Assembly: GCA_029785825.1 (NCBI GenBank)
Contig: JAFLYY010000001.1
Span: 775,374 to 839,373, forward strand
Direction: 5' to 3'
Length of the DNA stretch: 64,000 bases
Origin: Nitrososphaerota archaeon
GTDB taxonomy: Archaea > Thermoproteota > Nitrososphaeria > Nitrososphaerales > Gagatemarchaeaceae
A model generated the notes under the pieces. It did not search any database, was not told where the DNA came from, and saw nothing but the letters and a program-made list of their open reading frames with translations. This document shows, one piece after another, positions 22,602 to 63,410 of this stretch. The position numbers and the translations under genes are program-made. Position 1 is the stretch's first letter; each line of letters opens with the position of its first letter.

Positions 22602-22991
22602 GTGGGGGAGCACTCGGAGACATTCACCCTCGACGTGGAGAGGAAGAAGGTCAAGGACCTGATTGTCAAGCACCTTACGGGGTTCGGGTACAGGCTGACC
22701 AAGGAGCAGGGGTGGATACTCGTCTTCGAGAAAGGGTCGCTGAGGAAGAACATCTACACCACCTCCTTCGACTCCGCCTACAAGCAGGTCATCGTGTCGC
22801 TGGTAGGAGAGGAGTCGGTCCCCGTGACGACGGTGGCGATATCCTTCTCGCTCCCGTTCCTCATCCTACGCAAGAACGACATGCTCGCCATCAACAACCT
22901 CACGAAAGCGCTGAAGGACTACATAGTCATAACCACCGGGTACGCAGAAGTGGCCGAAAAGGCTAGGCGCCCGCTGCGACCGAGTTCCTGA
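22602..22991 (+). CDS. Conserved-looking small alpha/beta protein, unknown
   Basis: This is 129 residues, starting at GTG. Alternating strands and helices (KKVKDLIVKHLTGFGYRLTK, EQGWILVFEKGS, TVAISFSLPFLILRK) suggest a compact cytosolic fold. No family is recognised. Its 3' end overlaps the convergent TrmB-family gene by 29 bp. Confidence 0.55.
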   Translation: MGEHSETFTLDVERKKVKDLIVKHLTGFGYRLTKEQGWILVFEKGSLRKNIYTTSFDSAYKQVIVSLVGEESVPVTTVAISFSLPFLILRKNDMLAINNLTKALKDYIVITTGYAEVAEKARRPLRPSS

Positions 22992-28094: not shown

Positions 28095-29816
28095 CTACGT
28101 GACCGAGATGTGTAGGACCGCCTGGACCACGAGGACGGAGACCAGAGCTATGAGCACCAAGGCGAGGGCGTGCTTGAACCCCTCGGCGGTCCCTCCCTCT
28201 CCCATCTTCCCCGCGACCATGCCGATAAACCAACTCTCCACTACGGAGACGGTGAGGAGAATGCCTACCGTCGCGCCGCTGATCGTCGGCATAGGCGGCG
28301 CGAACTTGCTCGAGGGTCCGAAGTTGATCGGCTTGGCCACGAAATAGACCATGATGAACGTCGTGACCACGACCATTACCGAAGAGAAGTAACAGATGAA
28401 CAAGTACGGCCTCAACGACGAGCGCTTCTCCGCCTCGAGGTCGTTCATCTTGCGGGTGAATTCGGCCATGTCGGAGAAGCTCCTCACTGTACCCCCTCCC
28501 ACGTCTATCACCTCCGTCAGGAGCATGCCCGCTTCGCGGGTGACCCAGCTCTTCACCTCGCTCGCGAACGTGGAGATCACCTGGACGGTCGAGACCCCCC
28601 AGGAGACCTGGGCGCTCATCTTCTTGACATGCTTGGAGAGGAGCCCGTAGTGCTTGTCTGCCAGCGCCTGGATGGTCTGCTCCGGGGATAGACCGATCTT
28701 CCGTCCTTCGGAGATGTCTCTGATGAAGTCAGGGAGCGCCTTCTCTAGGGCGTTCCTTTCCCGCGCGGCCCTGCTTGCCACGACCGTCGGGGCGACTGTC
28801 ATCAGTATCAAAGCGAAGGCCGTGTGCTCGAACAGGGACAGGGGGACCGGGATAAGGAAGAACGCGAGCCCTACAGGGATGGACGCCCCGAACGCGATGA
28901 ACGGCTGGTAGTCCACGTATGGGTACCTGGCCTGGACAGCGTTGAGTAGATAGATGAAGAGGAAAGAGAACGCTGGGACGCCGACCAGACCAAAGACCTC
29001 AATCCCCTGAATCCCGGACGACGAGTGGCTTATCAGCGACTCCGACTGGAAGAGGACGAAGAGGCTTATCCCGAGGACGGAGGTGACCGTGACGTATCCT
29101 TCAGCAAGAGTCCCTATCGTCTCGGAGGACTTCTTGACCTTAAGCGCCCTGGTCTCGTAGATCTCTTTGAGTTTGTTGTTAAGGAAAGAGGACATGTCTC
29201 CGCCTGTCTTGATTATGGTCGTATAGCCATAAAGGAGCTCCGAGAACGCTTTGTTCGGGCTCGTCTCGGCAGCCTTCTCGAGCGCGGTCGTCGGGTCGAG
29301 GCCGAACACGTCGATGTCGAGCAGGATTCTTTTCGCCTCCTTAGCGGCGTTAGGGAAGATGTCAGACAACTTAGCGATCCGCCGGATGGAGGCGATGGGA
29401 GAAATGCCGCCTCCCGCCAAGACGACGATGAAGCCCACCATGAAGGGGAGCTCGTTGTCGAGCGCCGCCGACCTGGACCCCTGGCTGATACGCGGGGACC
29501 TCATTATGATTAGGAAGACGAGTGGAGGCGTCGCGGCAAACGCCCCTGAGACGAGCAAGAGCAGAGGGTTGGCGAGCAGGTAAGCGACGCCGATTTCAGC
29601 CACGAAGGCGACGGCGGAGAGGATGCTCCCCAGAAAGGCGAGCGATATCAGCCCTTCCGGGGTGATCCTCATGTTGGACCTCAGTATCTCGTCGCGGAGC
29701 CAGGGGGTGTTGGCCGCTATCCCTGTCGAATACCGGCCGAATATCCTGTAGGCGAACCCCGAGACGACGTCGAGAGGGCCCAGGTCGGCTTCCCCGGCCG
29801 CCTTCGCCGACTTCAG
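28095..29816 (-). CDS. Type IV pilus/archaellum membrane platform protein (ArlJ/TadC-like), locus A
   Basis: This is the integral membrane core of a type IV filament machine, with two T2SF domains separated by membrane helices. Helical blocks such as LPFMVGFIVVLAGGGISPIA and ALPDFIRDISEGRKIGLSPE mark the two domains. The first ATG (29672) would drop a typical ArlJ N-terminus (DVVSGFAYRIFGRYSTGIAA). The frame is open to the ATPase stop, and a CTG at 29816 overlapping that TGA is the best start, giving 573 residues. It follows the ATPase gene directly and is expected to dock it at the membrane. Confidence 0.88.
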   Translation of the reverse strand: MKSAKAAGEADLGPLDVVSGFAYRIFGRYSTGIAANTPWLRDEILRSNMRITPEGLISLAFLGSILSAVAFVAEIGVAYLLANPLLLLVSGAFAATPPLVFLIIMRSPRISQGSRSAALDNELPFMVGFIVVLAGGGISPIASIRRIAKLSDIFPNAAKEAKRILLDIDVFGLDPTTALEKAAETSPNKAFSELLYGYTTIIKTGGDMSSFLNNKLKEIYETRALKVKKSSETIGTLAEGYVTVTSVLGISLFVLFQSESLISHSSSGIQGIEVFGLVGVPAFSFLFIYLLNAVQARYPYVDYQPFIAFGASIPVGLAFFLIPVPLSLFEHTAFALILMTVAPTVVASRAARERNALEKALPDFIRDISEGRKIGLSPEQTIQALADKHYGLLSKHVKKMSAQVSWGVSTVQVISTFASEVKSWVTREAGMLLTEVIDVGGGTVRSFSDMAEFTRKMNDLEAEKRSSLRPYLFICYFSSVMVVVTTFIMVYFVAKPINFGPSSKFAPPMPTISGATVGILLTVSVVESWFIGMVAGKMGEGGTAEGFKHALALVLIALVSVLVVQAVLHISVT

Positions 29817-47253: not shown

Positions 47254-47583
47254 CTACCCGTTCTCCACGAGAGTTATCCCGTAGGACTTCGCGACCACCT
47301 CCTCGACGCCTCCCCGCATGGCGTAACACGGCTCCGCGCCGACGTCGAAGGCCATCGCGAAGAGCCCGACCATCTCTTCGACCGGGTTGTTCCCCCGTTC
47401 CTTCATGCAGACGACCGTCCTCTTCTCCCCTCCGCCTTCAGTCTTCTCCGCCAGCAGGTCGAACCGGTGGACGACCCCTGACCTGCCGGCCAGGAGCGCA
47501 TCGAATCTCACAGTGTATCCGTCTCTCCTGAGACTTTCCGCGAGGTCGTCAAATGACCTCCTGCGTCCAAAGGCCGCACTCAC
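47254..47583 (-). CDS. Small nuclease-fold protein (orphan C-terminal domain)
   Basis: This is about 109 residues. DDLAESLRRDGYTVRFDALL, GRSGVVHRFDLLAEKT and TVVCMKERGNN follow the helix-strand pattern of restriction-endonuclease-like folds, with the D of HRFDLL and the C/K of VVCMKE in the places of the catalytic residues. The GTG start at 47583 overlaps the stop of the CBS-type gene (GTGA). It is a stand-alone version of the tail found in the proteins at 22.9 and 55.9 kb. Confidence 0.6.
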   Translation of the reverse strand: MSAAFGRRRSFDDLAESLRRDGYTVRFDALLAGRSGVVHRFDLLAEKTEGGGEKRTVVCMKERGNNPVEEMVGLFAMAFDVGAEPCYAMRGGVEEVVAKSYGITLVENG

Positions 47584-48437
47584 GGTCGGGCGCCCCTTGC
47601 CATCTTCAGCTCTCCTGCCTCCCAAGGCTTCATCACCAGGTCCCACGGAGTGACGACCCCCGCGCCTCCTTCGACAGTCAGGCAGACGCCGCTTCCTGGT
47701 TTGATGGCGTCTGCCGCATTCTTCACCCGTGCGCCGCCGTCGGCCTCGACCGCTTCCGTGCCGCCTGCATCCTGCAGCGTCGCCTCCAGCATCTTCTCCG
47801 GAGCGTCTTTGACGGTGCGGAGCCGCGCCGGGCTGAAGAGGTAGGCGAGGATCTCCCTGTCGGATACGAAGCGGTTCGAGCCCTCGACGCGGACCCGCCT
47901 CACCCTCCTCCTGAAGAGCTGGCGGACGGCTTCCCTGAGGCTGGCGCTGCCGGGAAGAGAGAAGACGGGCGAAGAGGCCACGTCACGCAGCCGGAGGCCG
48001 GTGCTAAAGAGGCCTTCCTGGTACAAGAGGAGGGCGTCGGCGAGCGTGACCATCCCGAAGGATTCGGCAGACTCGACCAGAGCGTACCCAAACCTCGTCC
48101 TCTGGAACGCGTCGAGCACGGCGGCTACCCCGTCTGACCTGACGGGATCGAGGAAGACCGACGCGCTCTCGCACGGTTGAAAGAGGAGCCGATACAGGTC
48201 CTTCGGCTCGGTCGCGAGCATCATTTCGAGGAGAGGGTATCCCGCAAACGCCATCCACTTCCCGCCCCTGCTCAGGTACCTGACCCCATCGTCTGTGCTG
48301 GATATCAGGAGAACTTCCCGTCTTGGGATGTCGAGCAGCGTCCCGGCGATCACATTGAACGTCCCCTGCTCCACGGTAGGGACCACCCTTCCGAACAGCT
48401 CGGGGACCGCTTCATTCAGCCGTAGCAGACCCGTCAA
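47580..48437 (-). CDS. CBS-domain-like regulatory protein
   Basis: This is 285 residues. Two CBS-like halves can be seen (ASVFLDPVRSDGVAAVLDAF ... YALVESAESFGMVTLADALL, and DVASSPVFSLPGSASLREAV ... RVRVEGSNRFVSDREILAYL). CBS pairs bind adenosyl ligands. The remaining third is not recognised. The TTG start at 48437 has GGAGGGG before it. It is translationally coupled to a nuclease-fold protein, which suggests the two form a sensor-effector pair. Confidence 0.65.
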   Translation of the reverse strand: MTGLLRLNEAVPELFGRVVPTVEQGTFNVIAGTLLDIPRREVLLISSTDDGVRYLSRGGKWMAFAGYPLLEMMLATEPKDLYRLLFQPCESASVFLDPVRSDGVAAVLDAFQRTRFGYALVESAESFGMVTLADALLLYQEGLFSTGLRLRDVASSPVFSLPGSASLREAVRQLFRRRVRRVRVEGSNRFVSDREILAYLFSPARLRTVKDAPEKMLEATLQDAGGTEAVEADGGARVKNAADAIKPGSGVCLTVEGGAGVVTPWDLVMKPWEAGELKMARGARP

Positions 48438-51243: not shown

Positions 51244-51792
51244 TCAGCCAGTCTGGCCGGCTACCACGTTGAAGATGAACTTGCCGCCGTCGACGGTGGC
51301 TATGGTGACCTGGTAGGAAGTCCCGGAGGAGGTACCAGTAATGCCGTATACGTTCAGCTCGCAGCTGGCCTGCACGGGTTGCGCTGTAGTTACAGGGTAG
51401 CTGGTTGCGATAGTTGTCGTCACCGTGCCGCTTACCACGGTGAGACTACTGCTCGTAGTTGTCGCATATGCGCCGCTTGTTACTACATTCTGCGCACCGC
51501 ACGAACCATAGAAGCTCGTAAGAACCCCGTTGAAGTAGACTGCCGAAACCGTTATCGCGCCGGTGCCCGTGTTCCTGAGGTACATCGTCAGGTAGTTCGG
51601 CGGCGAGGTCTGGAAGTTGTATGCGTCGAGGCTGACCTGCTCCGTCAGCTGGTTGACGTGCGAGTTGGTCAGGGTCCCTGCTAGCCCGGTGGTGAACACA
51701 TAGACTATGACCCCCGCGGCGACTGAAATCGCGATCAGGAGGAGGGTCGCGACTATGGGGCTAACTGCGCGCCTGCGCTGCTGGATCTTCAA
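51244..51792 (-). CDS. Type IV pilin, locus B
   Basis: This is a 182-residue pilin with a class III signal peptide (QQRRRAVSPIVATLLLIAIS). The mature part (about 150 residues) is Thr/Ser/Val-rich with two cysteines, NYLTMYLRNTGTGAITVSAV marking the conserved strand pair. It is a close paralogue of the upstream pilin. TTG 51792 is 3 bp past the previous stop, so the two are one transcript. Confidence 0.85.
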   Translation of the reverse strand: MKIQQRRRAVSPIVATLLLIAISVAAGVIVYVFTTGLAGTLTNSHVNQLTEQVSLDAYNFQTSPPNYLTMYLRNTGTGAITVSAVYFNGVLTSFYGSCGAQNVVTSGAYATTTSSSLTVVSGTVTTTIATSYPVTTAQPVQASCELNVYGITGTSSGTSYQVTIATVDGGKFIFNVVAGQTG

Positions 51793-51795
51793 CGC

Positions 51796-52353
51796 CTAGC
51801 TCGAGCTCCCTGCAACCACGTTGTACGGCGTGATGCCGCCGTCTGCCGTGACAATCTTAACCTGGTAGGAGGTGCCTGCCGAGACGTTACCCAAGTCGAA
51901 GAGGTTGAGCTGGCAGGAGCTCTGGGCCGACTGTGGAGCTGGAACGGTGGTTGGCCAAGTGCCGTTGGTAGTCGCGGCGACTGAGGTGCTGCCGCTATTC
52001 ACAGAAATCACCGCGGTGGAACCCGAGCTGCTAGTCGCGTACCCTGTAGTCGCTGAAACCGAAGTCCCGCAGCTCCCGTAGAACTGCGCCGGCGCCCCGT
52101 TGAAGTACACCGACGATAATGTCACGGCCGACGTCCCCGTGTTGCTGAGATAGACCGTCAGGAAGTTGGTTGACTGGAAGTCATAGGACTCGACGGTCAC
52201 CTGCTCCGTCAGCTGGTTCCCCCCCTGCTTCGTCAGGTTCCCTGAGAGCCCAGTCACGAACACGTATACGATGACCCCCGCAGCCACGGTGATAGCTATG
52301 AGCAGCAGCGTGGCGATGATGGGCGAGACCGCCTTCTTCTGCGAGACGTTCAT
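51796..52353 (-). CDS. Type IV pilin, locus B
   Basis: This is a 185-residue pilin: class III signal peptide SQKKAVSPIIATLLLIAITV, and a mature domain paralogous to the next gene (FLTVYLSNTGTSAVTLSSVY, NGAPAQFYGSCG). A TATA box (GTTATATGC, 52376-52384) is centred 27 bp from the ATG, so the pair of pilins has its own strong promoter inside the larger cluster. The two paralogues may be alternative or alternating major subunits. Confidence 0.85.
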   Translation of the reverse strand: MNVSQKKAVSPIIATLLLIAITVAAGVIVYVFVTGLSGNLTKQGGNQLTEQVTVESYDFQSTNFLTVYLSNTGTSAVTLSSVYFNGAPAQFYGSCGTSVSATTGYATSSSGSTAVISVNSGSTSVAATTNGTWPTTVPAPQSAQSSCQLNLFDLGNVSAGTSYQVKIVTADGGITPYNVVAGSSS

Positions 52354-52375
52354 CGGCTCCCGTTGGCGTCCGGGC

Positions 52376-52384
52376 GCATATAAC
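52376..52384 (-). promoter_or_regulatory. TATA box of the pilin pair in locus B
   Basis: GTTATATGC on the minus strand, centred 27 bp before ATG 52353, indicates a leaderless mRNA for the two major pilin genes. Confidence 0.6.
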
Positions 52385-52409
52385 GGCGGTGAAGAAGTTC
52401 TACTCCAGG

Positions 52410-54266
52410 CTACGGCGGGGTCGCGACGAAGGTGTACTCCGCCCCGGTGGACGTCACCACTATGAACGTATAGCTCCCGCTGGACCAGGCGAAGTTCAGG
52501 GTCAGGGAATAGGTCTCCCCTGGGCTGAGGTACACGTCGAACGCCGGAGTCGACGCCGTGTTGTAGTCCACCTCAGAAGTCGAGCCGATGATCCACAGGC
52601 TGACGAGGTGCGAAGTCGCCCCCTCGAGGTTGCTGAGGTTCTCGAACCCGACGGTGACGTGGTTCTGGTTAGGCCAAGCGTCGGTCGCCGTGCTCCCGCT
52701 CGAAACCGTGAACGTCATGGCGCCGGGGTTGGTCGCCCGCGGCTGTATGACGTAGAAGCGGAACTCCATTGCCCCTACCGGGATGGGAGGTATCGCGGCG
52801 TTCCCGAAGACGAGCTCGTTCTGGTTGACGAAGAGCCTCACGTCGAAGACCCCGTTGTTCCAGGTAAAGCTGAAGGGGCCGTTTGATATCGTCGCCGTGT
52901 CTATCTGGTTCCAGTCGAAGGCGTAGCTGGCGCTAGGCCCCGTGCCTATGGGCCTCGCCTGAGTGAACTCGTTCACATAGATGTACACGTTGGCCTGGGA
53001 GGAGGTGCTCCCGGCGAAGTTGAAGGAAATCTGGGAGAGTATGCCAGGGGATTCCCCGGTGGCCCCGTTAGGGCACTGGGTGGAGTTCGTCGCTTCCTGC
53101 GCGGTCAAGCAGGACGGTATGACGTAGTTCAGGGTCTGGTCGACCACGTTGGCGCTGTAGAAGAGCCCTATCCCGATGTCGTCGAAGAACATCCTTGCCT
53201 CCTGAAGGCCGTTGTTCCCGCTGACGTGCTTCAGGTTGAATGTAGCATACAGCGCCAGTATGTAGAACCCCGTTGTGACGAACACGTTCTGGGTGGTCCC
53301 CGCCGCGGGGCCGCTGTTCGCCAGGAGGGACGTGATGTTAATCCCAGTGGTCTCCACCCATTGGGTGTCCGCGGCGGAAGGGCCAGTGTAGCAGAGCTCC
53401 CCTGTGGTGCCGCAGTTAGCCCCTGAGTTCAGCGGGATCGGAATCGTGTAGTTGTTGCCTGCCGGGTCCTGGATGGAGAACTGGACCACGAGCTTGTTGA
53501 GCTCGGGGATGCCCAGGTAAAACCCGCTCATGAACCGGGCGTAGCTGAAGTACGCCGTCGGACAGCTCGAAACGCAGGGGGAGGAGACCCCGAAGGTGGT
53601 CATATTGACGTACATCTCATACTTCCACTCGACCGTGAACCCCGGGTTGGACGACCCGCTGGGCGGATTGATGTTGGAGCTGATGAATATCACCCCGGGG
53701 CCAGACGGGGAGCCTGGCGACCCCAGCGACGTGTCCGTAGGGTCGTAGCCAGCGAGGAGCCCGGAGCTCACTCCAGACCCAGACGGGTAGAACACGTCCG
53801 AGGTCCACCCGGACGAGCTCGTGGTGAAGTTCTCGTTCTGTATCGGGGTGTACTCTGCGACTCGGTCCTGCGAGGTGAAGGAGAGGGGGAAGGGGAGGGA
53901 CGCGGGGTAGGTGGACGGGGGGTTGTGCGTCGCCGTGTGGCAGAGCGTGGAGTAGTAGGGGGACGCGGTGTCGCAGACGGGCTCGTACCCGTTGGTGTAA
54001 TTGTATGGGAGGAGCGGTGCGGCGATCGTGGGCCCGTTCCTGACGTCGTAGGGCCCCCTGGTGGCGCTCGCGCCGAAGCTCACCCCGGTGATCTGGGTGT
54101 TGTCTAGCCCCTTTGCCTGCTGGGCCGCGTCGTATCCCTTCACGGCCGTCTGATACCCCGTGTACTCCTGGAAGACGACTACGAACGTCCCCGCGACGAG
54201 GAGGGCGAGGACGAGGAAGATCGCCATCCCGACGACCGTCCCGACCCCCCGCCTCTTCACCCTCAT
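52410..54266 (-). CDS. Large pilin-like adhesin with class III signal peptide
   Basis: This is a 618-residue protein that opens with KRRGVGTVVGMAIFLVLALL, a class III signal like the pilins. The extracellular part contains several predicted beta-sandwich domains rich in Tyr/Asn/Ser/Thr (for example ANVYIYVNEFTQARPIGTGP and AWPNQNHVTVGFENLSNL). It ends in a pilin-like fold (SLTLNFAWSSGSYTFIVVTS). It is probably a minor tip subunit or adhesin carried on the pilus. It lies between pilin genes in the same operon. Confidence 0.78.
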   Translation of the reverse strand: MRVKRRGVGTVVGMAIFLVLALLVAGTFVVVFQEYTGYQTAVKGYDAAQQAKGLDNTQITGVSFGASATRGPYDVRNGPTIAAPLLPYNYTNGYEPVCDTASPYYSTLCHTATHNPPSTYPASLPFPLSFTSQDRVAEYTPIQNENFTTSSSGWTSDVFYPSGSGVSSGLLAGYDPTDTSLGSPGSPSGPGVIFISSNINPPSGSSNPGFTVEWKYEMYVNMTTFGVSSPCVSSCPTAYFSYARFMSGFYLGIPELNKLVVQFSIQDPAGNNYTIPIPLNSGANCGTTGELCYTGPSAADTQWVETTGINITSLLANSGPAAGTTQNVFVTTGFYILALYATFNLKHVSGNNGLQEARMFFDDIGIGLFYSANVVDQTLNYVIPSCLTAQEATNSTQCPNGATGESPGILSQISFNFAGSTSSQANVYIYVNEFTQARPIGTGPSASYAFDWNQIDTATISNGPFSFTWNNGVFDVRLFVNQNELVFGNAAIPPIPVGAMEFRFYVIQPRATNPGAMTFTVSSGSTATDAWPNQNHVTVGFENLSNLEGATSHLVSLWIIGSTSEVDYNTASTPAFDVYLSPGETYSLTLNFAWSSGSYTFIVVTSTGAEYTFVATPP

Positions 54267-54272
54267 CCTGCA

Positions 54273-54815
54273 CTACGCCTTCCAGAACAGGGTGACCGTG
54301 TTCCCCCTCGCCGTAGACACCACTATGTTGTACGCGGTCCCTGAGACCCAGGTGTAGTCCACCTTGAACGAGCATGAGTAGCCCACCCCCACCACGAAGT
54401 AGTTGTCTCCGGCGGGGACCGAGCATGTGTTCGTGTCCGTCGGGTTGGGGGGCGCGGCCGCGATCTGCGACGGCCCGCTGAACTCCAGGAACTGCGACCC
54501 TGCCCCCGTGAAGCTGGTCAGGTTGCTTATCGCTATGCTGGACACCTCCGTGGTGATCGTCCCCACGTTCCGGACGGTCACGACGACGTTCTGGGTGGGA
54601 TAGGTCCCGTTGAACTGGACGTACTCCACGACGAACGACTCCTGCAGCTGGCTCGTCTTCAGCCCGATGAGGTTCCCGAACCCTTGGGACCAGTTAGCGA
54701 ACGCCGCGGACCCGAAGGCGAAGACCACCGTCCCGAGGACGACCACGATCGCGAGCATCAGGAGGGTCGCGACGATCTCGCTGACCCCCTTCCTGCGCTT
54801 CCCCTCCATCTTCAT
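54273..54815 (-). CDS. Pilin-like protein, first pilin of locus B
   Basis: This is a 180-residue pilin-like protein with a class III signal peptide (KRRKGVSEIVATLLMLAIVV). The mature domain has conserved strands (VVVTVRNVGTITTEVSSIAI) and two cysteines. It begins 3 bp after a 26-codon zinc-knuckle frame and ends 6 bp before the large adhesin gene, so all are one operon. By position it could be the minor pilin that joins the adhesin to the shaft. Confidence 0.82.
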   Translation of the reverse strand: MKMEGKRRKGVSEIVATLLMLAIVVVLGTVVFAFGSAAFANWSQGFGNLIGLKTSQLQESFVVEYVQFNGTYPTQNVVVTVRNVGTITTEVSSIAISNLTSFTGAGSQFLEFSGPSQIAAAPPNPTDTNTCSVPAGDNYFVVGVGYSCSFKVDYTWVSGTAYNIVVSTARGNTVTLFWKA

Positions 54816-54818
54816 CCA

Positions 54819-54899
54819 CTAGGCCCCTCCGCAGGAGCAGAGGGCGCCGCAGAGCCGACAGGTCCAGGCATCTCCCCTGCCGCTCCCTCCGGTGACCAT
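54819..54899 (-). CDS. 26-residue zinc-knuckle microprotein leading the pilin operon
   Basis: The frame reads VTGGSGRGDAWTCRLCGALC and then SCGGA: a C-x2-C-x3-C-x-C cluster, long enough to hold a zinc ion. It has a promoter (CCTTTAAGTG, 54925-54934, about 30 bp before the ATG) and ends 3 bp before the first pilin gene, so it is the first frame of the operon. Comparable tiny zinc-finger proteins are known in archaea. It may regulate pilin expression; its translation is not proven. Confidence 0.5.
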   Translation of the reverse strand: MVTGGSGRGDAWTCRLCGALCSCGGA

Positions 54900-54924
54900 C
54901 TCTTCGTCGCGAGGAGCGCGAAGT

Positions 54925-54934
54925 TCACTTAAAG
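54925..54934 (-). promoter_or_regulatory. Promoter of the locus B pilin operon
   Basis: CCTTTAAGTG lies about 30 bp before the microprotein ATG at 54899 and is the only AT-rich block upstream of the pilin genes. Confidence 0.5.
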
Positions 54935-55048
54935 GAATGTAACATCTCCGAGGACAGCCAAAAGAGAATCTCGCCCCGCCGCGCGTCTGTGCCCCGCAGA
55001 GGCGACCGTGACGCTTTTTCTAGCAGCGGCTCCGGCGACGACGCTGGA

Positions 55049-55888
55049 GTGAAGTCCGTCGGGGCCCACGCCCAGGTGGGCGGAGGGCGGCTCTACTATG
55101 AGCTGGCCGGGGAGAGGAGGGACCACGCCGTGGTCCTCATCCACGCCGGCTTCCTCGACAGGAGGATGTGGGACGGGCAGTTCGAGCTCCTCGGCAGGAA
55201 GGGGTTCTCCGCGCTCAGGTACGACCTCCGAGGGTCCGGGCTGTCTGACGGGCCCAAAGAAGAATACGACGACGCCGAGGACCTGAAGGACCTCCTCGGC
55301 CACGTGGGGGTGAAGGAAGCGACCCTCGTGGGGGTCTCCAACGGCGGGAGCGTCGCCATCGACTTCGCCCTCGAGTACCCCGAGCGCGCGAGGGGGCTGG
55401 TCCTGGTGGCCCCCACGGTGGACGGCTACGAGTACGGCACGCCGCAGGAGGAGCAGATGGACCACGCCAGAGACAAGGACTGGGAGCGGTGGGAGGAGGC
55501 TGTCAAGGACGGGAGGGTGGACGAGGCGGTCGACATACACCTCTCCATCATGGGGCAGGCGCTGGGGGGCGCCAGGCCGAGGGTCGCGTCGATAGCCAGG
55601 GAGAACTACCGCGTCTTCAGCGAGCCGTTCTGGCACCTGCGCCGGACGAAGCCGCGCCCCGCCTTCAAGAGGCTCGGGGAGATCCGGGCGCCGACCCTCC
55701 TCGTCTGGGGGGACAGCGACTTCCCCGGCCAGATCACCCTCGCCGAGAGGGTCCACCAGATGATACCGAAGTCGTCCAGGATACTCGTCCGTGGCGCCGA
55801 CCACCTTGTCAACGTGTCGCAGCCCGCCGCCTTCAACGACGCCCTGCTTTCGTTCCTGAACACGGGCGCTACCGCGGCCGCGCGGTAG
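55049..55888 (+). CDS. Alpha/beta-fold hydrolase
   Basis: This is about 279 residues. The nucleophile elbow is GVSNGGSVAI (serine), the oxyanion region is LIHAGFLDRRMWDGQF, the acid is in LLVWGDSDFPG, and the histidine in VRGADHLVNVS. This is a normal alpha/beta-hydrolase of the esterase/haloperoxidase group with unknown substrate. GTG 55049 gives the shortest form that keeps the fold; GTG 54989 would add 20 low-complexity residues. It overlaps the convergent TackOD1 gene by 20 bp. Confidence 0.82.
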   Translation: MKSVGAHAQVGGGRLYYELAGERRDHAVVLIHAGFLDRRMWDGQFELLGRKGFSALRYDLRGSGLSDGPKEEYDDAEDLKDLLGHVGVKEATLVGVSNGGSVAIDFALEYPERARGLVLVAPTVDGYEYGTPQEEQMDHARDKDWERWEEAVKDGRVDEAVDIHLSIMGQALGGARPRVASIARENYRVFSEPFWHLRRTKPRPAFKRLGEIRAPTLLVWGDSDFPGQITLAERVHQMIPKSSRILVRGADHLVNVSQPAAFNDALLSFLNTGATAAAR

Positions 55889-56849
55889 CCTCGAGGACCG
55901 CCTTCACCTTCTTCACCGCCCCGGACCCGTCGAAGTCTTCCACCACAGAGACCCCGTACCCGGTCTCAAGGCGCTTCGCGTCTTCCGAGGCGGCAGGTAT
56001 CGTCACCAGCACCGACCGGTTCGGCTTTATGTCGAACGTCTTGGCGAAGAACGCTATCACGGCGCTCGCGTCCACGGGCTTGGTGTCAACGGCCACCTGC
56101 AGGGCCACGGTCTCTCCGTCCCTCTTGGCGTAGACGTCGAGGGAGTGCACCGACCCCGACTGCCCCTGCACCTTGGCCGGGGCGGAGACCTCGTACCCCA
56201 TCTCCGTGAGCATCGCGGCCAGCTCGGGGTCGAGGAGGAGGGTGTTCCTGAGCTCCACCAGTACCCTCTCGTTGACCTCGTAGGTGTCGATGTTGACGAG
56301 GGTGAGGTCCGCGGAAGTGAACTCGTGGTTCCCCTCCTTGCAGATGAACACGAGCCTCGGCGAGCTCGTCTTGGAGAGACAGTTCTGGCACTCGTACCAG
56401 ACCCCCGACACCCTGAGCTCCCCCTGGGTCTTGACGGGCCTGCCGCAGTTGGGGCACTGGAGCGTCCCGTCCTTGTCGAAGCGCGAGTCGTCCCCTATGT
56501 AGCCGCAGTAGACGTGCTCCACCAGGGACCGCTTCGAAGAGACCTTCGACCTGCACTTCACGCACTCCACCATCACCATGGGGTCGGCCCTGAGGTGCAC
56601 CGGGCACATGACGACCTCCCTGCTCGAAGCCTTACGGAGTATCGCCTGCTCCAGCATCTCCTTGATCCACCCGTTCACGTCCACCTCCAGCCCGAGGACC
56701 TCGTCCGCCAGCGGGTAGTGGGCCTTCCCGTCCGAACCGATCTTCGGCTCGAGCAGGAGGTTCTCCGTGAGCATGCGGCGGAGGAGCTCCCTGGTGTTGG
56801 GGTCGCTGTAGAGCCTCGTCGCGTCTATCCTCGGGCCGGGGGTCTGCAC
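55869..56849 (-). CDS. TackOD1-like zinc protein with nuclease-like C-terminal domain
   Basis: This is 326 residues. The middle (about 80-180) has a zinc-ribbon array: C82, C96/C99, C115 in HVYCGYIGDDSRF, C132/C135, C154/C157, C170 and H175. This matches the TackOD1 output domain of Thaumarchaeota and some bacteria. The last 110 residues (LTEMGYEVSAPAKVQGQSGS, HSLDVYAKRDGE, VALQVAV) resemble a restriction-endonuclease fold. It lies 7 bp from the platform gene in the pilus operon, an unexpected place for such a protein. It may couple filament assembly to a signal. Confidence 0.7.
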   Translation of the reverse strand: MQTPGPRIDATRLYSDPNTRELLRRMLTENLLLEPKIGSDGKAHYPLADEVLGLEVDVNGWIKEMLEQAILRKASSREVVMCPVHLRADPMVMVECVKCRSKVSSKRSLVEHVYCGYIGDDSRFDKDGTLQCPNCGRPVKTQGELRVSGVWYECQNCLSKTSSPRLVFICKEGNHEFTSADLTLVNIDTYEVNERVLVELRNTLLLDPELAAMLTEMGYEVSAPAKVQGQSGSVHSLDVYAKRDGETVALQVAVDTKPVDASAVIAFFAKTFDIKPNRSVLVTIPAASEDAKRLETGYGVSVVEDFDGSGAVKKVKAVLEATARPR

Positions 56850-56856
56850 TCCTATC

Positions 56857-57720
56857 TCATCTCACGAAGACCTGGAAGGCCAGTATCGTAGCCACCACGA
56901 GTATCACGATGTGCTTGAACCCGGCCGCGAAAGAAGCTTCGCCGAGCTTCCCTGCGCCCAGCCCCCCTATCACCGCCTCCACCAGGGCGATCTGGAGGAA
57001 GGCGCTCTTGATGCTCGAGAGGCTGATCCCCTGCAGCCCTGCGAAGGCCACGGCCGCCCCGGCCGCCGTGCTCTGGGTGCTGATGAGCCCGGAGAAGAAG
57101 GTGTCAAGCATCACTATGGCTATGCCGAGGAAGATGAAGACCGCTATGTACGTGGTGAGGGTGTACGGCTTGAGGGTGCCCCTCACTTCCTTCTCTATCT
57201 GGTGGAGCTCCATCGTGTGCCTCTGTATCGCCTCCAGCATGTCCTCCACCTTCCCCCCTGCCCTGTTGGCCTCCAGAAGGACCCCGAAGGTCCTCCTAGC
57301 CATGCGAGAGTCAAGCCGCCTCAGCTCCGACCTGATGACGTCCTCGAACGGTATCCCCCACGAGAGCTGGGCCGTCATCCGCCGCAGCTCCTTGGAGAGG
57401 GGGCCGTAGTCGTTTTCCGCGGCCATCTCGAGGGAGCGGGTGAGGCTGAACCCCGTCTTCGCGTTGCTGGTGACGTCGGAGAGGAACGTGGGGAGGGCGT
57501 CGTCCACCTTCTCCCTCCACCTGTTGAACCACCAGTCGACCCCTCCAGGGACCGCCATGAAAGCCACCCCCACGAGGAGGAGCGTCGACAGCAGCGGGAA
57601 TGGGAGGGCAACCCCCGCGTAGACGTTCAGGGCCACCACAGACCCCATCGCGGCTGCCGCAGCCGCGGCGGAGGCCAGGTAGACCTCCGTCCTCTTCTCG
57701 TGCAGCTCCCGGAGCCCCAC
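56857..57720 (-). CDS. Pilus platform protein, second half (TadC-like), locus B
   Basis: This is 287 residues with one T2SF domain (DALPTFLSDVTSNAKTGFSL ... LRRMTAQLSWGIPFEDVIRS) and five or six membrane helices. In locus A the two T2SF domains are one protein; here each is a separate gene, as in bacterial TadB/TadC. The GTG start is 1 bp past the previous stop. It is expected to form a heteromer with the next protein. Confidence 0.86.
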   Translation of the reverse strand: MGLRELHEKRTEVYLASAAAAAAAMGSVVALNVYAGVALPFPLLSTLLLVGVAFMAVPGGVDWWFNRWREKVDDALPTFLSDVTSNAKTGFSLTRSLEMAAENDYGPLSKELRRMTAQLSWGIPFEDVIRSELRRLDSRMARRTFGVLLEANRAGGKVEDMLEAIQRHTMELHQIEKEVRGTLKPYTLTTYIAVFIFLGIAIVMLDTFFSGLISTQSTAAGAAVAFAGLQGISLSSIKSAFLQIALVEAVIGGLGAGKLGEASFAAGFKHIVILVVATILAFQVFVR

Positions 57721-57721
57721 C

Positions 57722-58618
57722 TCAGTCCACCTCCTTCCTGACCGTCTGGTCCGCCATTATCAGGGTGAAGAGGCCCCCCACGGGGACGAACACGTAGGCG
57801 ATGAGGTACATCATCGTCACGATGTTCAGCCCCCCGATGGTCCCGACGATCGCCCCCATCACGGAGAACATGATGAGCAGCAGGAGGGGCGCCACCACCA
57901 GCGTGATGGTGTAGATCTCCGCCACCATCCCCACGTTCTCCCCCACCGCCTTCGCCTGGAGCCGCTTGTTCAGCATCATGTTCGACGCCGCCCTCTGCAG
58001 GTAGGCGTTGAGGTCGTTCCCGGTGACCGAGGCCGACCTGAACCCTTCGAGGAACTCCCCGAAGGTGTCAGAAGGGGAGCGCTTGATCTCGGCGTCCACG
58101 GCCTGCGACAGGTCCATCCCCATGGCGGCCATGTCCCTGACTATCATGCTCGACTCCTCGGAGACCACCCCTCCCTTCTCCTCCCTGGCGAGGACCTCGA
58201 AGATCCTCTCAGGGGTGACCCCCGCGGTCGAGAGGACAGACATATGCCCGGCGGCGTAGGGGAGCTCGGCGTCGAGCTTCTGCCCCCTGGAGTGGGCCCT
58301 GGAGCTCGGGTAGAAGTAGAACATGGCGAGGCACCCCGCGAAGGCCAGCCCCCCCGACCCCGCCGGGAGGAGGAGGACGAAGCTCAGCCTCATCCCCGCG
58401 TAGAACGCCCAGCTGAACCCTGCGAGCGCGCCGGCGACCCCGGAGATGGTCGACAGGAAGAGCGCGCCGGCCACGTAGGCGCGGAAGGTGACCCTCATCC
58501 CGCTCATGGCCAGGTCCTTCCTGGTGTCCGCGAAGAAGCGCTCGAACGTCCTGGTGTAGGGGGCGTATAGGACGTAGGACGTCCCCCAGAACCCCAGCTT
58601 CGCGGAGCCCTCTTTCAT
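57722..58618 (-). CDS. Pilus platform protein, first half (TadB-like), locus B
   Basis: This is 298 residues: an N-terminal amphipathic part (YAPYTRTFERFFADTRKDLA), two helices, one T2SF domain (AELPYAAGHMSVLSTAGVTP, SDTFGEFLEGFRSASVTGND) and two helices. The ATG overlaps the ATPase stop (ATGA). The open frame further upstream is a shadow of the ATPase gene. Together with the next gene it equals one ArlJ-type protein. Confidence 0.86.
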   Translation of the reverse strand: MKEGSAKLGFWGTSYVLYAPYTRTFERFFADTRKDLAMSGMRVTFRAYVAGALFLSTISGVAGALAGFSWAFYAGMRLSFVLLLPAGSGGLAFAGCLAMFYFYPSSRAHSRGQKLDAELPYAAGHMSVLSTAGVTPERIFEVLAREEKGGVVSEESSMIVRDMAAMGMDLSQAVDAEIKRSPSDTFGEFLEGFRSASVTGNDLNAYLQRAASNMMLNKRLQAKAVGENVGMVAEIYTITLVVAPLLLLIMFSVMGAIVGTIGGLNIVTMMYLIAYVFVPVGGLFTLIMADQTVRKEVD

Positions 58619-60483
58619 CTGGTCACACCCTCCAGCTCGGCCCCGGCCCTGCTGGCCATGGCGTACGGGTTCGCGTAGAACTCGTGGACGTACTGGCTGA
58701 CCTCCTTGTACGAGCGGTAGTTCTTGCTCGCCAGCCACTCGAGGAATATCTTCCTGGACTCGATGTCGCGCCTGATCTCGTCGGGCCTGAGCCCGTACCT
58801 CTGGTTGATCTTGTCCACCAGCCTGCTCCTCCCCGTGGCGTTGAGCCTGTCGGTCACGGGGTCCCACCTGTACACCTCGTTCATGACCATCTCGTTGGTC
58901 CTGTTGTCGTACCCCAGGATCTCGTTGACGCTCACCACGCGCCTCACCGACCTGTCCCCTATCCTGAGCTTCAGCTGCAGGACGACGCAGTCGAGGCTTG
59001 TCCCCACCATGCTCCGGGGGATGTTCATCGGCTCAGTGGTGAGCCTGTTGAAGACCGCCTCCACGGAGTCGGCGTGTATCGTCGACATCCCTCCGTGACC
59101 GGTGCTGATCGCCTGGAAGAGTGTGAACGCCTCCTTCCCCCTGACCTCCCCCACTATGATGACGTCCGGCCTCTGCCTGAGAGCGTTCCTTACGAGGTCG
59201 AAGAGGGTGATCTCCCCGGCCCCTCCTTCCGACCGGCTGACCTCCTGGATCCAGTTCTCCTGGGGCAGAGAGAGCTCCGGTGTGTCCTCGATCGAGATGA
59301 CCTTCTGCCCGGGCGCGATGAACATGGAGAAGCAGTTCAGCGAGGTGGTCTTCCCGCAGGCCGTCGAGCCGGCCACGAGCATGGAGAGCCGCTTCTCCAC
59401 GAGATACCAGAGGTATGCCGCGACCTCGGCGTTGACGGTGCCGTATTTGACGAGGTCGACGATTGTGAACGGGTCCGCCTTGAACTTCCTGATGGTGAAT
59501 GTGCTCCCCTTCTGGGTGATCTCCTTCCCGTAGGTGAGGTGGAGCCTGCTCCCGTCGTCGAGGGACGCGTCGACTATGGGGAGCGCGAGCGAGACGTGCT
59601 TCCCCGACACGTAGGCGAGCTTGGACACGAACGTGTCCAGCTCCTGGTCGGACGCGAACGCGACGTTGGTGGGGATGGACTCGTAGTCCCTGTGCCAGAC
59701 GTAGATCGGGATCTTGGCGCCGTCGCACGAGATGTCCTCTATCAGTGGGTCGAGCATCAGGGGCTCGATCTTCCCCAGGTGGATGAAGTCCCTGGTGAAG
59801 TAGTACTGGAGCTTCCTCATGCTGGGCTTCGGTATGTTGAAGCCGTAGGTGTCGGCGAGCCTCGCCACCTTCGCGGAGAGGAACGCCTCCGCCTTCTCCC
59901 GGGTCTCTATGCTCCTGAGGTCGACGTCCATCTCCTCTATCAGCAGCTCCTTGAGCTGGTCGAACTGCTTCCGCTCCTGGGAGGTCAGCTCCGGCTCTAT
60001 CACGATGTACCTGTACCCCTCCACCCCTTCCTCCTTCGATATGGCCCCGTAGACGTTGAGGGCCCCGGTCCTCAGGGGGAAGACCTCCACGAAGTTCTGC
60101 GCCGAGTCGCTGAGCATCGCGTTGATGGAGGACCGCTGGATCCCCTTCACAGGGGCGGCGGCCGGGGGCGGGGTGGCAGGCTTGGCCGACCTCATGAAGG
60201 CGATGACGACCCCTTCGACGGCCACCACCGCGGCCATGGCCGCGGCCAGCGTCACCATCGCGGATGCGGTCCCCATCCCGAGGTAGTCGGCCACGAGCAC
60301 GGCTATCGGGAGGCGGGGCACCCCCGAGACGGCCAGGGCGGCCGTCTCGACGAGCAGGTAGCATATCACGGCGGCTAGGGCCCAGAGCCTGATCCTGCCC
60401 GGAGTCCCCTCCGTAGGGGCTTTCAACAGTGCAAGACCATCCAAGGTTTTGCTTAAGGTTGTGTAACTTCCGGCCGGGCACAC
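58615..60483 (-). CDS. Type IV pilus ATPase with N-terminal membrane helices, locus B
   Basis: This is up to 622 residues. The C-terminal 450 residues are a complete ArlI/TadA ATPase: Walker A GSTACGKTT (372-380), Asp box around SIEDTPELSL, VIIVGEVRGKEAFTLFQAIS and STIHADS. The first 100 residues contain two or three membrane helices (WALAAVICYLLVETAALAVS; AMVTLAAAMAAVVAVEGVVI), which is unusual, since these ATPases are normally soluble. A CTTAAGC box near 60454 suggests TTG 60426 as start (603 residues). Confidence 0.87.
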   Translation of the reverse strand: MCPAGSYTTLSKTLDGLALLKAPTEGTPGRIRLWALAAVICYLLVETAALAVSGVPRLPIAVLVADYLGMGTASAMVTLAAAMAAVVAVEGVVIAFMRSAKPATPPPAAAPVKGIQRSSINAMLSDSAQNFVEVFPLRTGALNVYGAISKEEGVEGYRYIVIEPELTSQERKQFDQLKELLIEEMDVDLRSIETREKAEAFLSAKVARLADTYGFNIPKPSMRKLQYYFTRDFIHLGKIEPLMLDPLIEDISCDGAKIPIYVWHRDYESIPTNVAFASDQELDTFVSKLAYVSGKHVSLALPIVDASLDDGSRLHLTYGKEITQKGSTFTIRKFKADPFTIVDLVKYGTVNAEVAAYLWYLVEKRLSMLVAGSTACGKTTSLNCFSMFIAPGQKVISIEDTPELSLPQENWIQEVSRSEGGAGEITLFDLVRNALRQRPDVIIVGEVRGKEAFTLFQAISTGHGGMSTIHADSVEAVFNRLTTEPMNIPRSMVGTSLDCVVLQLKLRIGDRSVRRVVSVNEILGYDNRTNEMVMNEVYRWDPVTDRLNATGRSRLVDKINQRYGLRPDEIRRDIESRKIFLEWLASKNYRSYKEVSQYVHEFYANPYAMASRAGAELEGVTR

Positions 60484-60586: not shown

Positions 60587-61438
60587 TTGCGCGCCGGGGG
60601 TGTGAACAACTTCTTCACCCGTCTTAAGAACTCCAGCGGGGCGCTTCTCGTCGTGCGCCTGCGTAAGGACGTCAACGTCTACCTCTTCGACCCGACGAGG
60701 AAGTACTTCCACATCGTGATCGAGATGGAGAACGTCCCCGGGGCCCTCAGGAACGTCCTCGAGGTGATGCACGGCATCGGGCTCAACGTCCTCGGGAGCT
60801 TCTCCTCGGTGGACGGGTCGGCCAGGCTCGGGGTCTGGAGCGGGTTCGTGGAAGACAACGAGCACACGGCCTGGGACCTGAAACAGAGGCTGGGGGCGTC
60901 CCCATTCGTCCACGACGCCATGGTGGTCGAGAGCAGGCAGGGGTTCCTTGTCGACGGGGTCCACTTCCCCCTGGCGTTCAACACAGGGACCAGGGCGGTG
61001 ATGATGGGCGCGAAGTCCCTGGCCAACATGCTGAGCACCGTCAACGAGAAGTTCGGGACCGGAGGGAACGTGATACTGTTCGAAGAGGGGAAGACCTACG
61101 GCAAGGACCTGGGAGAGGAGTACCTCCTCAAGCTCGGGGCCGACTTCATCCTCTCCAACTTCGCAGAGGTGGTCAAGCTCTACCAGGCGCTGGGGTGGTT
61201 CAGGGTCGAGAAGGTCAGGTTCGACCCCGCCGAGGGGAGGGTCGTCATAGACGCCGGGGAGAGCTTCGAGTGTTCCGGGGTGGAGTCGCGCGTCCCCAGG
61301 AGCCACTTCGTCAGGGGGCACCTCGAAGGGATGGTCACCACCTGGCTCGGGAAGCCCCTGGAGAGCAAGGAGGCCCTCTGCGCGGCCAAGGGGGACCGGG
61401 TCTGCGAGTTCGTCCTCACGCCGAGGCCGGAAGCGTAG
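60587..61438 (+). CDS. ACT-like plus V4R domain protein, copy 3
   Basis: This is 283 residues. An N-terminal basic strand region is followed by an ACT-like domain (FHIVIEMENVPGALRNVLEV) and a V4R domain (GTRAVMMGAKSLANMLSTVN ... FVRGHLEGMVTTWLGK). Cysteines at FECSGVES and ALCAAKGDRVCEF are kept as in copy 1. It is divergent from the pilus ATPase operon, with about 100 bp between starts, and upstream of a protein mannosyltransferase gene. It may sense a hydrophobic ligand linked to the envelope. Confidence 0.75.
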   Translation: MRAGGVNNFFTRLKNSSGALLVVRLRKDVNVYLFDPTRKYFHIVIEMENVPGALRNVLEVMHGIGLNVLGSFSSVDGSARLGVWSGFVEDNEHTAWDLKQRLGASPFVHDAMVVESRQGFLVDGVHFPLAFNTGTRAVMMGAKSLANMLSTVNEKFGTGGNVILFEEGKTYGKDLGEEYLLKLGADFILSNFAEVVKLYQALGWFRVEKVRFDPAEGRVVIDAGESFECSGVESRVPRSHFVRGHLEGMVTTWLGKPLESKEALCAAKGDRVCEFVLTPRPEA

Positions 61439-61455
61439 CCGTTCGCCTGCTCAGC

Positions 61456-61462
61456 TTTTTTA
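61456..61462 (+). promoter_or_regulatory. TATA-like box of the mannosyltransferase gene
   Basis: A TTTTTTA run lies about 25 bp before ATG 61485. Confidence 0.5.
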
Positions 61463-61484
61463 GGCGACTTGGCGGAACAGAACC

Positions 61485-63410
61485 ATGGCGTTCCAAGAAC
61501 CGAGCGAGGAGCCTGTATCCCGGCTCCTTCTCGGGTTGTTCGCGGGTTCGTCGGCGGCTATCCTCCTGCTTCTCGTCCTGGTCATCATAGTCCATGCCTT
61601 GACGTCGGCTCCCAGCCTGGTCCCCGTGGTCGGGGTCCTGTCTGTGACACTCGCGGGGTTCGCGGTGATCTCGATAGCCGACGGGATTTGCTTCGCCTGG
61701 AGCCGGTATCCCGCCCACCGGAAGGCCGTGACATTCGTCGTGGCTGTGACGCTCGCGACCCTCCTGGCGCACGCGTACGTGATGGGGACCCCGGGGGTCT
61801 CCACTCCCGGATCGGCGTCGGGCGCCGTGGGGACACACTTCGGGAACAGCGAGGTCTCGGTCAACTCCTCCCGGGTCGGGGCCCAGCTGGTGGTGAGCGT
61901 CCAGGCTGAGGCCGGGGGGAGCGCCATCGCGAACCTTTCCATCCTGAGCGGCGGCGCCCCTCTCGCCGGGGGCGGGTTCGTCCAGCCGCCCAGCTACTCT
62001 TCGCCGCTGGAGCCTGGGAACACCGCCACTGGAATGTGGACCCTGGGGCCAGGGGAGACTGTCGCCAACGTCACTGTCGACTACCGCTCCCTCACCTGCT
62101 ACGACTCCACGGACCAGGTGTACGGGTGCATAATGGACGAGGTCTTCTACGTCCCTGCCGCCCAGCACATGCTCGCCGGCGCGCAGTGCCAGCAGGGGGT
62201 CCCCAGGAACGACCCGGCGTACTGCAACCCCGAGCACCCGCCCCTCACTAAGGCGCTCGTCGCCGCGGGGATGGCGGTCTTCGGAGAGTACAACACGGTC
62301 GGCTGGAGGGTGATGCCCGCCCTCCTGGGGTCGTTCAGCATCCCCCTCGTCTTCGGGATAGCGTGGAAGGTGTCCGAGAGCAAGAAGATAGCGGCGCTGT
62401 CCGCCCTCCTGCTCGCCCTCGACGTCCTGTTCTTCTCCCAGTCGAGCGCCGCCCTCCTCGACATCCCGCCCCTCTTCTTCGAGCTCGCCGCGTTCTTCGT
62501 GGTCGTCGCGGGGGTGAAGTGGTGGAAGTTCGACAGGTACTTCTTCGCGGGGGTCCTCATGGGGCTCGCCGGGCTGGCCAAGGAGACGGCGATCTTCCCC
62601 CTGATGGGGCTCCTGACCTACATCCTCCTCTTCGGCGACGGGATCAGGCTGAGGAGGGTGTACTCGGTGCTGAAGGTGGCGCTGGTCGTTATAGTTGTGT
62701 TCTCGGTCGGGCTCCAGGCCTACGACTCGGCCCTGGCGTCCCAGTCATACCAGCTCTTCTCCCAGCAGATAGCCTACCTCCTCTCCTACGGGGCGAGCCT
62801 CACAGGAGGGTGCCCCTGGTCCTGCGGATGGACCAACACGGTCACCGGGGGGTACATCACCCCCTTCAACTGGGTCACCTACTACTCTCCCATCGGGTAC
62901 TACCTGGTCTCCGTGACGGTCAACCCCGGCAACCTGCACTACGTGTCGGTGGGGTACTACGGGGTCACCAACCTGCTCGAGACCTGGACGATCTACGTCT
63001 GGGTCCCCCTCGCCGCGTACGCCCTCTACAGGCACCGCCGCAAGGAGAAGCAGCCCAGCCTCGACCAGTTCACAGCCGCGGAGGGGGCGGCCCCGCCCGC
63101 CGCTGAAGCGCCCCTCGCCGCGCAGGGGACCCCCGCAGACCTGAAATTCGCGGGGCTTGCCCTCACCATGTTCGCCTGGACGTTCCTGCCCTACATCGCG
63201 CTCTTCTTCGCAGGGAGGGTCACCTACCCCTTCTACATCATCGACGCGGTCCCGTTCATGGCGATGGGGACCGCCTACTGGCTGTCGAGGAAGTGGTTCC
63301 CGAAGTGGCTGGTGTGGGTGTACCTGGCGTTCGTCTTCGTCTTCTTCCTGGTGTACTTCCCGGACAAGGCGTTCCTCCCGGTCGGGCTGAGGGTGCTCCT
63401 CGGGCACTGA
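61485..63410 (+). CDS. Protein O-mannosyltransferase (GT-C, PMT family)
   Basis: This is a 641-residue, about 13-helix glycosyltransferase that uses a lipid-linked sugar. The catalytic acidic motif is in MDEVFYVPAAQHMLAG, followed by the family signature NPEHPPLTKALVAAGMAVFG and LLDIPPLFFELAAF in a later loop. Two N-terminal helices and an extracellular beta region (about 100-210) precede the PMT core, which is unusual. Likely acceptors are the Ser/Thr-rich pilins and surface proteins coded nearby. It has its own promoter. Confidence 0.85.
   Translation: MAFQEPSEEPVSRLLLGLFAGSSAAILLLLVLVIIVHALTSAPSLVPVVGVLSVTLAGFAVISIADGICFAWSRYPAHRKAVTFVVAVTLATLLAHAYVMGTPGVSTPGSASGAVGTHFGNSEVSVNSSRVGAQLVVSVQAEAGGSAIANLSILSGGAPLAGGGFVQPPSYSSPLEPGNTATGMWTLGPGETVANVTVDYRSLTCYDSTDQVYGCIMDEVFYVPAAQHMLAGAQCQQGVPRNDPAYCNPEHPPLTKALVAAGMAVFGEYNTVGWRVMPALLGSFSIPLVFGIAWKVSESKKIAALSALLLALDVLFFSQSSAALLDIPPLFFELAAFFVVVAGVKWWKFDRYFFAGVLMGLAGLAKETAIFPLMGLLTYILLFGDGIRLRRVYSVLKVALVVIVVFSVGLQAYDSALASQSYQLFSQQIAYLLSYGASLTGGCPWSCGWTNTVTGGYITPFNWVTYYSPIGYYLVSVTVNPGNLHYVSVGYYGVTNLLETWTIYVWVPLAAYALYRHRRKEKQPSLDQFTAAEGAAPPAAEAPLAAQGTPADLKFAGLALTMFAWTFLPYIALFFAGRVTYPFYIIDAVPFMAMGTAYWLSRKWFPKWLVWVYLAFVFVFFLVYFPDKAFLPVGLRVLLGH

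Follow-up and report, generated by a model that had tools for sequence, protein, structure and literature searches.

A TackOD1-associated, split-platform type IV pilus locus of a Nitrososphaeria archaeon whose assembly ATPase carries a predicted membrane hairpin

Introduction

Does locus B, a pilus gene cluster of a Nitrososphaeria archaeon, encode a distinct class of filament, or is it an archaeal type IV pilus (T4P) of a known kind with one part added? The locus occupies the minus strand from 60.4 to 51.2 kb of the window (the whole stretch of DNA analysed, 64,000 nucleotides of contig JAFLYY010000001.1) and holds the genes for an assembly ATPase, both parts of its platform, a TackOD1 protein, and four pilin-like proteins. 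The genome is 1.97 Mb in size and holds five T2SSE ATPases in total. The window also contains a second pilus locus, locus A (28-39 kb; 28.1-38.6 kb), with a fused platform and with vWA and MoxR genes.

An earlier prediction made from the letters of this DNA alone had located the parts of locus B correctly, and the T2SSE core with its hydrophobic N-terminus, the two platform genes, TackOD1, and the four pilin-like genes were all recovered. It regarded four parts as unusual and suggested a distinct filament class. Three of them (TackOD1, the split platform, and a zinc microprotein) proved to be ordinary or misread, and locus B belongs to a widespread clade instead.

Computed gene content, synteny, promoter and start codon, a conserved hairpin, and clade membership together make it likely that locus B is an archaeal T4P of a known kind. 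It would represent a TackOD1-associated, split-platform clade that is widespread in Thermoproteota (Nitrososphaeria and Bathyarchaeia), within which one family's ATPase has an added membrane hairpin tethering the ring. The anchored ATPase looks to be the only undescribed element.

Results

Gene order around locus B is kept within the genus, the family, and the order and also in Bathyarchaeia; the comparison of relatives proposed along with the original prediction thus returned conserved synteny across this whole range.

The association of TackOD1 (arCOG06883) with thaumarchaeal T4P loci was published in 2016 and 2018 (PMC4858521, PMC5847659); how strong it is has not been reported before. Of 397 Thermoproteota genomes drawn, 104 had a listed match both to TackOD1 and to a locus-B-type ATPase. 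The two were on one contig in 90 of these 104 and within 9 kb of each other in 89 of the 90, counts that cover the best-matching members only. In the window, as predicted, the TackOD1/nuclease-fold gene lies 7 bp behind the second platform gene. Its orientation relative to the ATPase varies, being downstream on the same strand here and mostly on the opposite strand elsewhere.

The AlphaFold2 (AF2) model of TackOD1 gave fold matches to 1Y88, EndoMS, and Can2. All nine cysteine positions in region 82-170 are invariant among 17 aligned sequences. In the C-terminal domain Asp238 and Lys270 are invariant and the canonical E-x-K on the strand is absent from all 17; the active site or its lysine could have migrated.

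A plus-strand alpha/beta hydrolase gene between TackOD1 and the pilins was missed in the original prediction. In relatives without this hydrolase (L103, L104, L105, L106, and L108), as well as in L088 from another family, a pilin gene follows TackOD1 at about -4 to +12 nt, and TackOD1-pilin is therefore probably the older operon.

This arrangement bears on whether TackOD1 binds DNA and regulates transcription of the pilin operon instead of serving as an assembly factor; we give the regulator slightly less than an even chance. TackOD1 is described as an output domain of archaeal response regulators, at times together with a winged helix-turn-helix, and its function is called obscure (PMC5847659). 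A regulator would also fit the model, in which helices and a hairpin at the N-terminus are combined with zinc ribbons and a restriction endonuclease (REase)-fold domain, and the pilins directly behind TackOD1 in several genera. A winged-helix match was, however, not obtained for TackOD1, and its spot beside the motor genes suits an assembly adaptor equally.

Two other genes of the window carry related stretches. A TrmB-type regulator (22963-24165) has a C-terminal stretch related to TackOD1 (E 2e-4) and shares the G-x-SG-x-x-H-x-x-D pattern, and a 130-aa open reading frame (ORF; 47254-47646) contains the same stretch of the TackOD1 C-terminal domain, recognised by eye only. It is possible that the domain is found repeatedly among the regulators of this lineage.

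Both platform genes of locus B have one T2SSF domain each, above the cut-off, and the platform of locus A (28095-29672) is a single fused protein with two T2SSF stretches, which agrees with the predicted split in one locus and fusion in the other. The two genes align with the N and C halves of ArlJ, UpsF, and BasF and of the fused locus A platform; the locus B platform is a colinear fission of an ArlJ/UpsF-type protein. The platform is split throughout this ATPase clade, in all loci where both halves are readable, and fused in locus-A-type loci. The product of the second platform gene, usually ~290 aa long, reaches 631 aa in L053 and 467 aa in L067, two Thermoplasmatota loci whose ATPases are related.

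The original prediction held the whole set to be foreign to standard systems. Part of this stands, as the anchored ATPase seems undescribed. The rest does not, given the earlier reports on TackOD1 and the split platforms known from Epd and Tad (PMC6668835) and from clade 1 of Makarova et al. (PMC4858521). With two platform genes of one T2SSF domain each, locus B could itself be Epd/Tad-like and its platform split an ancient TadB/TadC fission, but we regard this as unlikely. The genes run in the order ATPase, N half, C half, colinear with fused ArlJ/UpsF proteins, and the operon has no TadZ/FlaH gene. The ATPase core is nearest to Archaeoglobus fulgidus GspE (2OAP), its nearest solved structure by sequence and by fold (408 bits; 40% identical residues when aligned by fold), and to FlaI (NCBIfam score 431, below the cut-off of 550), with CpaF far behind. 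The pilins are ~180 aa long (180-185 aa, plus one of 618 aa), whereas those of Epd and Tad are described as short.

What sets the locus B family apart is the N-terminus of its ATPase. In aligned relatives the gene starts at the codon for residue 20 of the long ORF, which is TTG 60426 in the window and ATG in L037, L038, L040, L042, and L043. A CCTTAAG box ends 24-25 nt ahead of this start in the window and in six same-genus genomes, which fits a leaderless ATPase transcript. GTG 60483 was rejected as the start since it lies upstream of the conserved promoter, the first 19 codons of the long ORF are without constraint (median ratio of non-synonymous to synonymous polymorphism, pN/pS, 1.02), and relatives begin later. 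With the start at TTG 60426 the ATPase has 603 aa and the hydrophobic region lies entirely within it. The original prediction had named an untranslated hydrophobic N-terminus as the result that would speak against it; promoter position and homologous starts make translation very probable.

The AF2 model of the ATPase has helices at residues 9-34, 40-49, and 53-80, and the predicted local distance difference test (pLDDT) score is about 82-86 for residues 21-70. A linker of low confidence (80-108) then leads to the core. All 10 family ATPases examined, from three genera, are predicted to have two hydrophobic helices, and five hairpin columns (L, L, E, P, and G) are invariant across the 10, the Glu being residue 27 inside helix 1. 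Of the two or three membrane helices originally proposed, two are thus retained; hydropathy and AF2 show a short helix between them in place of a third. Basic residues stand ahead of helix 1 and behind helix 2 (by eye), which is consistent with both ends being cytoplasmic.

It is very unlikely that this is an ordinary T4P ATPase to which a hydrophobic N-terminus was assigned by faulty annotation, with translation from a codon behind that region (e.g., a Met at about residue 97 of the long ORF). The N-terminal region does evolve fast, and relatives outside the family begin right at the ATPase core. Against this, the TATA-like box precedes a TTG or ATG ahead of the hairpin by 24-25 nt in seven genomes, and homologous starts, invariant residues, and both helices are shared by all 10 sequences.

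The hairpin carriers form one clade in a quick tree (Shimodaira-Hasegawa-like approximate likelihood ratio test 100), beside the ATPases of families f10 and f2. Among the relatives checked, no hairpin was found in Bathyarchaeia or in other Nitrososphaeria with the same gene set, nor in 14 further ATPases of the phylum chosen for their long frames. Fusion with a free-standing two-helix gene was considered as the origin of the hairpin and rejected, as the 900 bp ahead of the ATPase gene contain no hydrophobic ORF in 10 hairpin-less relatives. A literature search on ATPases with N-terminal membrane helices returned nothing relevant.

Two further observations concern ATPases of relatives. Locus L051 (JAGMEL010000373.1), from a bin labelled WOR-3, encodes a pilus ATPase whose N-terminus is hydrophobic and which lies on a distant branch. 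This may be a second, independent gain of a membrane anchor; the sequence is of archaeal type and the contig is probably mis-binned. Several ATPase genes contain an insertion of ~470-500 aa (L041:8001-11285, L061:7885-10902, and L080:7830-11117, also L040, L043, L078, and L079). In the three that were scanned (L041, L061, and L080) it matches intein splicing and LAGLIDADG domains. The insertion sites differ between L041 and L061, and the ATPase of the window has no insertion.

Table 1. Features of locus B and its flanks (window coordinates)
Feature	Coordinates	Strand	Evidence
Pilus assembly ATPase (T2SSE/ArlI-like), 603 aa	58615..60426	-	Pfam T2SSE 142 bits; start TTG 60426 from alignment and promoter
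ATPase membrane helix 1 (predicted), residues 9-34, invariant buried Glu27	60325..60402	-	Hydropathy, AF2 helix, invariant columns in 10 sequences
ATPase membrane helix 2 (predicted), residues 53-80, then low-confidence linker 80-108	60187..60270	-	Hydropathy, AF2 helix
ATPase-operon promoter element AGTTACACAACCTTAAG (TATA-like CCTTAAG)	60452..60468	-	Position kept in genus; one of 2 window motif matches
Platform gene 1 (N-terminal half of ArlJ/UpsF-type platform), 298 aa	57722..58618	-	T2SSF 53 bits; matches N half of fused platforms; ATGA overlap with ATPase stop
Platform gene 2 (C-terminal half), 287 aa	56857..57720	-	T2SSF 69 bits; matches C half of fused platforms
TackOD1: helices and a hairpin at the N-terminus, zinc ribbons, and at the C-terminus a PD-(D/E)XK-fold domain lacking the canonical E-x-K	55869..56849	-	TackOD1 76.7 bits (cut-off 32); Mrr_cat 18.9 bits, just under cut-off; AF2 pLDDT 80
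Alpha/beta hydrolase between TackOD1 and pilins, not thought part of the pilus	54989..55888	+	Abhydrolase_1 79 bits
Pilin-operon promoter element TGTTACATTCCTTTAAG	54928..54944	-	Block conserved in window, L037, L038, L043; second of 2 window motif matches
26-codon leader ORF, ends 3 nt before first pilin, sequence unconserved	54819..54899	-	
Pilin-like gene 1, 180 aa	54273..54815	-	Pilin_N 18 bits, under cut-off 25.2; N-terminus matches pilin 3; position kept in relatives
Large pilin-like protein of 618 aa, candidate minor pilin (tip or adhesive)	52410..54266	-	Class III-type N-terminus, by eye
Pilin 3, 185 aa, likely major pilin	51796..52353	-	Pilin_N 28.0 bits, above cut-off 25.2
Pilin 4, 182 aa, pilin 3 paralogue (53% identical)	51244..51792	-	
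Regulator-like protein with ACT domain, 7 bp downstream of pilin 4; position shared with L037	50451..51236	-	
V4R-domain protein, divergent from ATPase	60653..61438	+	V4R 40 bits; start from relatives' alignment
PMT/GT39-type glycosyltransferase	61485..63410	+	PMT 51 bits

The remaining features are collected in Table 1. Among the four pilin-type N-termini (51244-54815), one scored above the Pilin_N cut-off and two below, and the 618-aa protein had no match. Pilins 3 and 4 are likely the major subunits. The 618-aa protein is conserved in full length in L038 and over its N-terminal ~75 aa alone in L037, L041, and L043.

As the hydrolase gene between TackOD1 and the pilins is on the plus strand, the pilins have a promoter of their own. 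The two operons share a promoter motif with no other match in the window, although two matches were also reached in 6 of 100 shuffles. Upstream of the pilin promoter, a GAGATTCTCyTTTGGCTG block (54926-54972) is conserved in same-genus genomes and is a possible operator.

The 26-codon frame ahead of the pilins begins 28 nt behind the TATA-like box. The three other same-genus leaders with this promoter have frames of 18, 26, and 17 codons, which start 25-38 nt past the box and stop 1-3 nt before the pilin. A short frame in such a position arose in 2-9% of shuffled leaders. The four leaders resemble two related pairs, so that we estimate the joint chance as nearer 1e-3 than 1e-6. A leader ORF coupling translation to the pilin is the best reading of the frame. 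That it is a zinc microprotein acting with the pilus, as first proposed, is highly improbable despite its four cysteines in two pairs and its place at the site where pilin-operon transcription is predicted to begin, since the three same-genus leaders have 0, 1, and 0 cysteines and unconserved amino acids, the TackOD1-pilin gap is too small for the frame in family members L103, L105, L106, and L108 and in the distant L088, and ~3% of shuffled leaders yield an ORF of at least 20 codons with at least 4 cysteines.

Searches with PF01478 and PF06847 returned no prepilin peptidase. Its absence was rejected when a relative's protein, itself a weak PF01478 match, was used as the query and found the gene at 90% identity about 180 kb away (G000:C1:596958-597569).

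The hydrolase is present in L037, L038, L040, and L043 and absent in L105, L106, and L108. The V4R and PMT genes (60587-63410) stand beside locus B in all same-genus loci that include this flank (L037, L038, and L040-L043), and the PMT-type neighbour could possibly serve pilin or envelope glycosylation. The "built-in regulation" of the original prediction is at most suggested by TackOD1 together with the V4R and ACT genes on the flanks. Elsewhere in the same genome, L086 (G000:C1:1078000-1094000) combines a T2SSE ATPase with two small membrane genes that take the platform position and show no T2SSF match. It also holds a pilin-like ORF of 69 aa and a CedD-like ATPase of the HerA type (174 bits, below the cut-off). 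L086 is possibly a separate filament or DNA-transfer system.

Discussion

The ATPases of type IV filaments are described as soluble rings docking to the platform on its cytoplasmic side, and whether the ring or the platform rotates is debated. Locus B probably makes an adhesive pilus whose motor ring is tethered in the membrane. Membrane insertion and topology, the hexamer, the stator role, the role of TackOD1, and adhesion are what we infer beyond the computed results, and the rest of the mechanism is taken from what is generally known about type IV filaments. The pilins, with their class III signals, would be cut in trans by the prepilin peptidase encoded elsewhere in the genome and assembled by a hexameric ATPase on a platform of two half-proteins. 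The hairpin, flexibly linked to the ATPase core, would tether the ring in the membrane, which would make the ring a fixed stator under the platform. TackOD1 would be a protein of the cytoplasm with zinc ribbons and an REase fold; it probably shared a transcript with the pilins at one time and most likely regulates pilin expression or assembly. The machine operon and the pilin operon have the same type of promoter.

More tentatively, the pilus ATPase could be an integral membrane protein throughout the family, with six hairpins (12 helices) fixing the ring around the platform as a non-turning stator and Glu27 touching the platform or incoming pilins; we consider this possible, with the odds somewhat against it. 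If true, a lineage with a membrane-welded ring would make the stator question testable, and an anchored motor ATPase could help to tell the fixed from the moving part of such machines. The phylum-wide link to one pilus ATPase clade offers a concrete handle on TackOD1.

Several points weigh against a T4P of known kind with a tethered ring. The hairpin is weakly constrained, with a median pN/pS of 0.70 versus 0.19 in the ATPase core, and hydropathy and AF2 are the only grounds on which it is modelled as inserted in the membrane. Adhesion and regulation are guesses by association. Full-length relatives of TackOD1 occur in 4 of 15 same-genus genomes that are at least 90% complete, so that locus B is patchy and an accessory trait within the genus. 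The relatives used are all draft or metagenome assemblies.

Comparison with known systems

The archaellum shares with locus B a homologous ATPase core and platform (ArlI/ArlJ), and ArlH, ArlF, ArlG, and ArlX were not recognised in locus B (50.4-63.4 kb). A. fulgidus GspE is the closest solved relative of the ATPase core; the sequence match covers query residues 158-608 only, and the solved chain has no counterpart to the membrane hairpin. The Epd pili of Methanococcus and bacterial Tad (PMC6668835) resemble locus B in their two single-domain platform genes and differ from it in gene order and colinearity, ATPase affinity, and pilin length, and locus B has no TadZ.

Thaumarchaeal T4P of subclade 4A with vWA and MoxR/GvpN (PMC4858521) match locus A. 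Locus B differs from them in that it lacks vWA and MoxR, its platform is split, and its ATPase falls in another clade. For thaumarchaeal loci with arCOG06883, the main-text descriptions (PMC4858521, PMC5847659) name no ATPase membrane hairpin or split platform, both of which are features of locus B, in a comparison made by description. Like locus B, these loci bring together an ATPase, a platform, pilins, and the TackOD1 double-zinc-ribbon protein.

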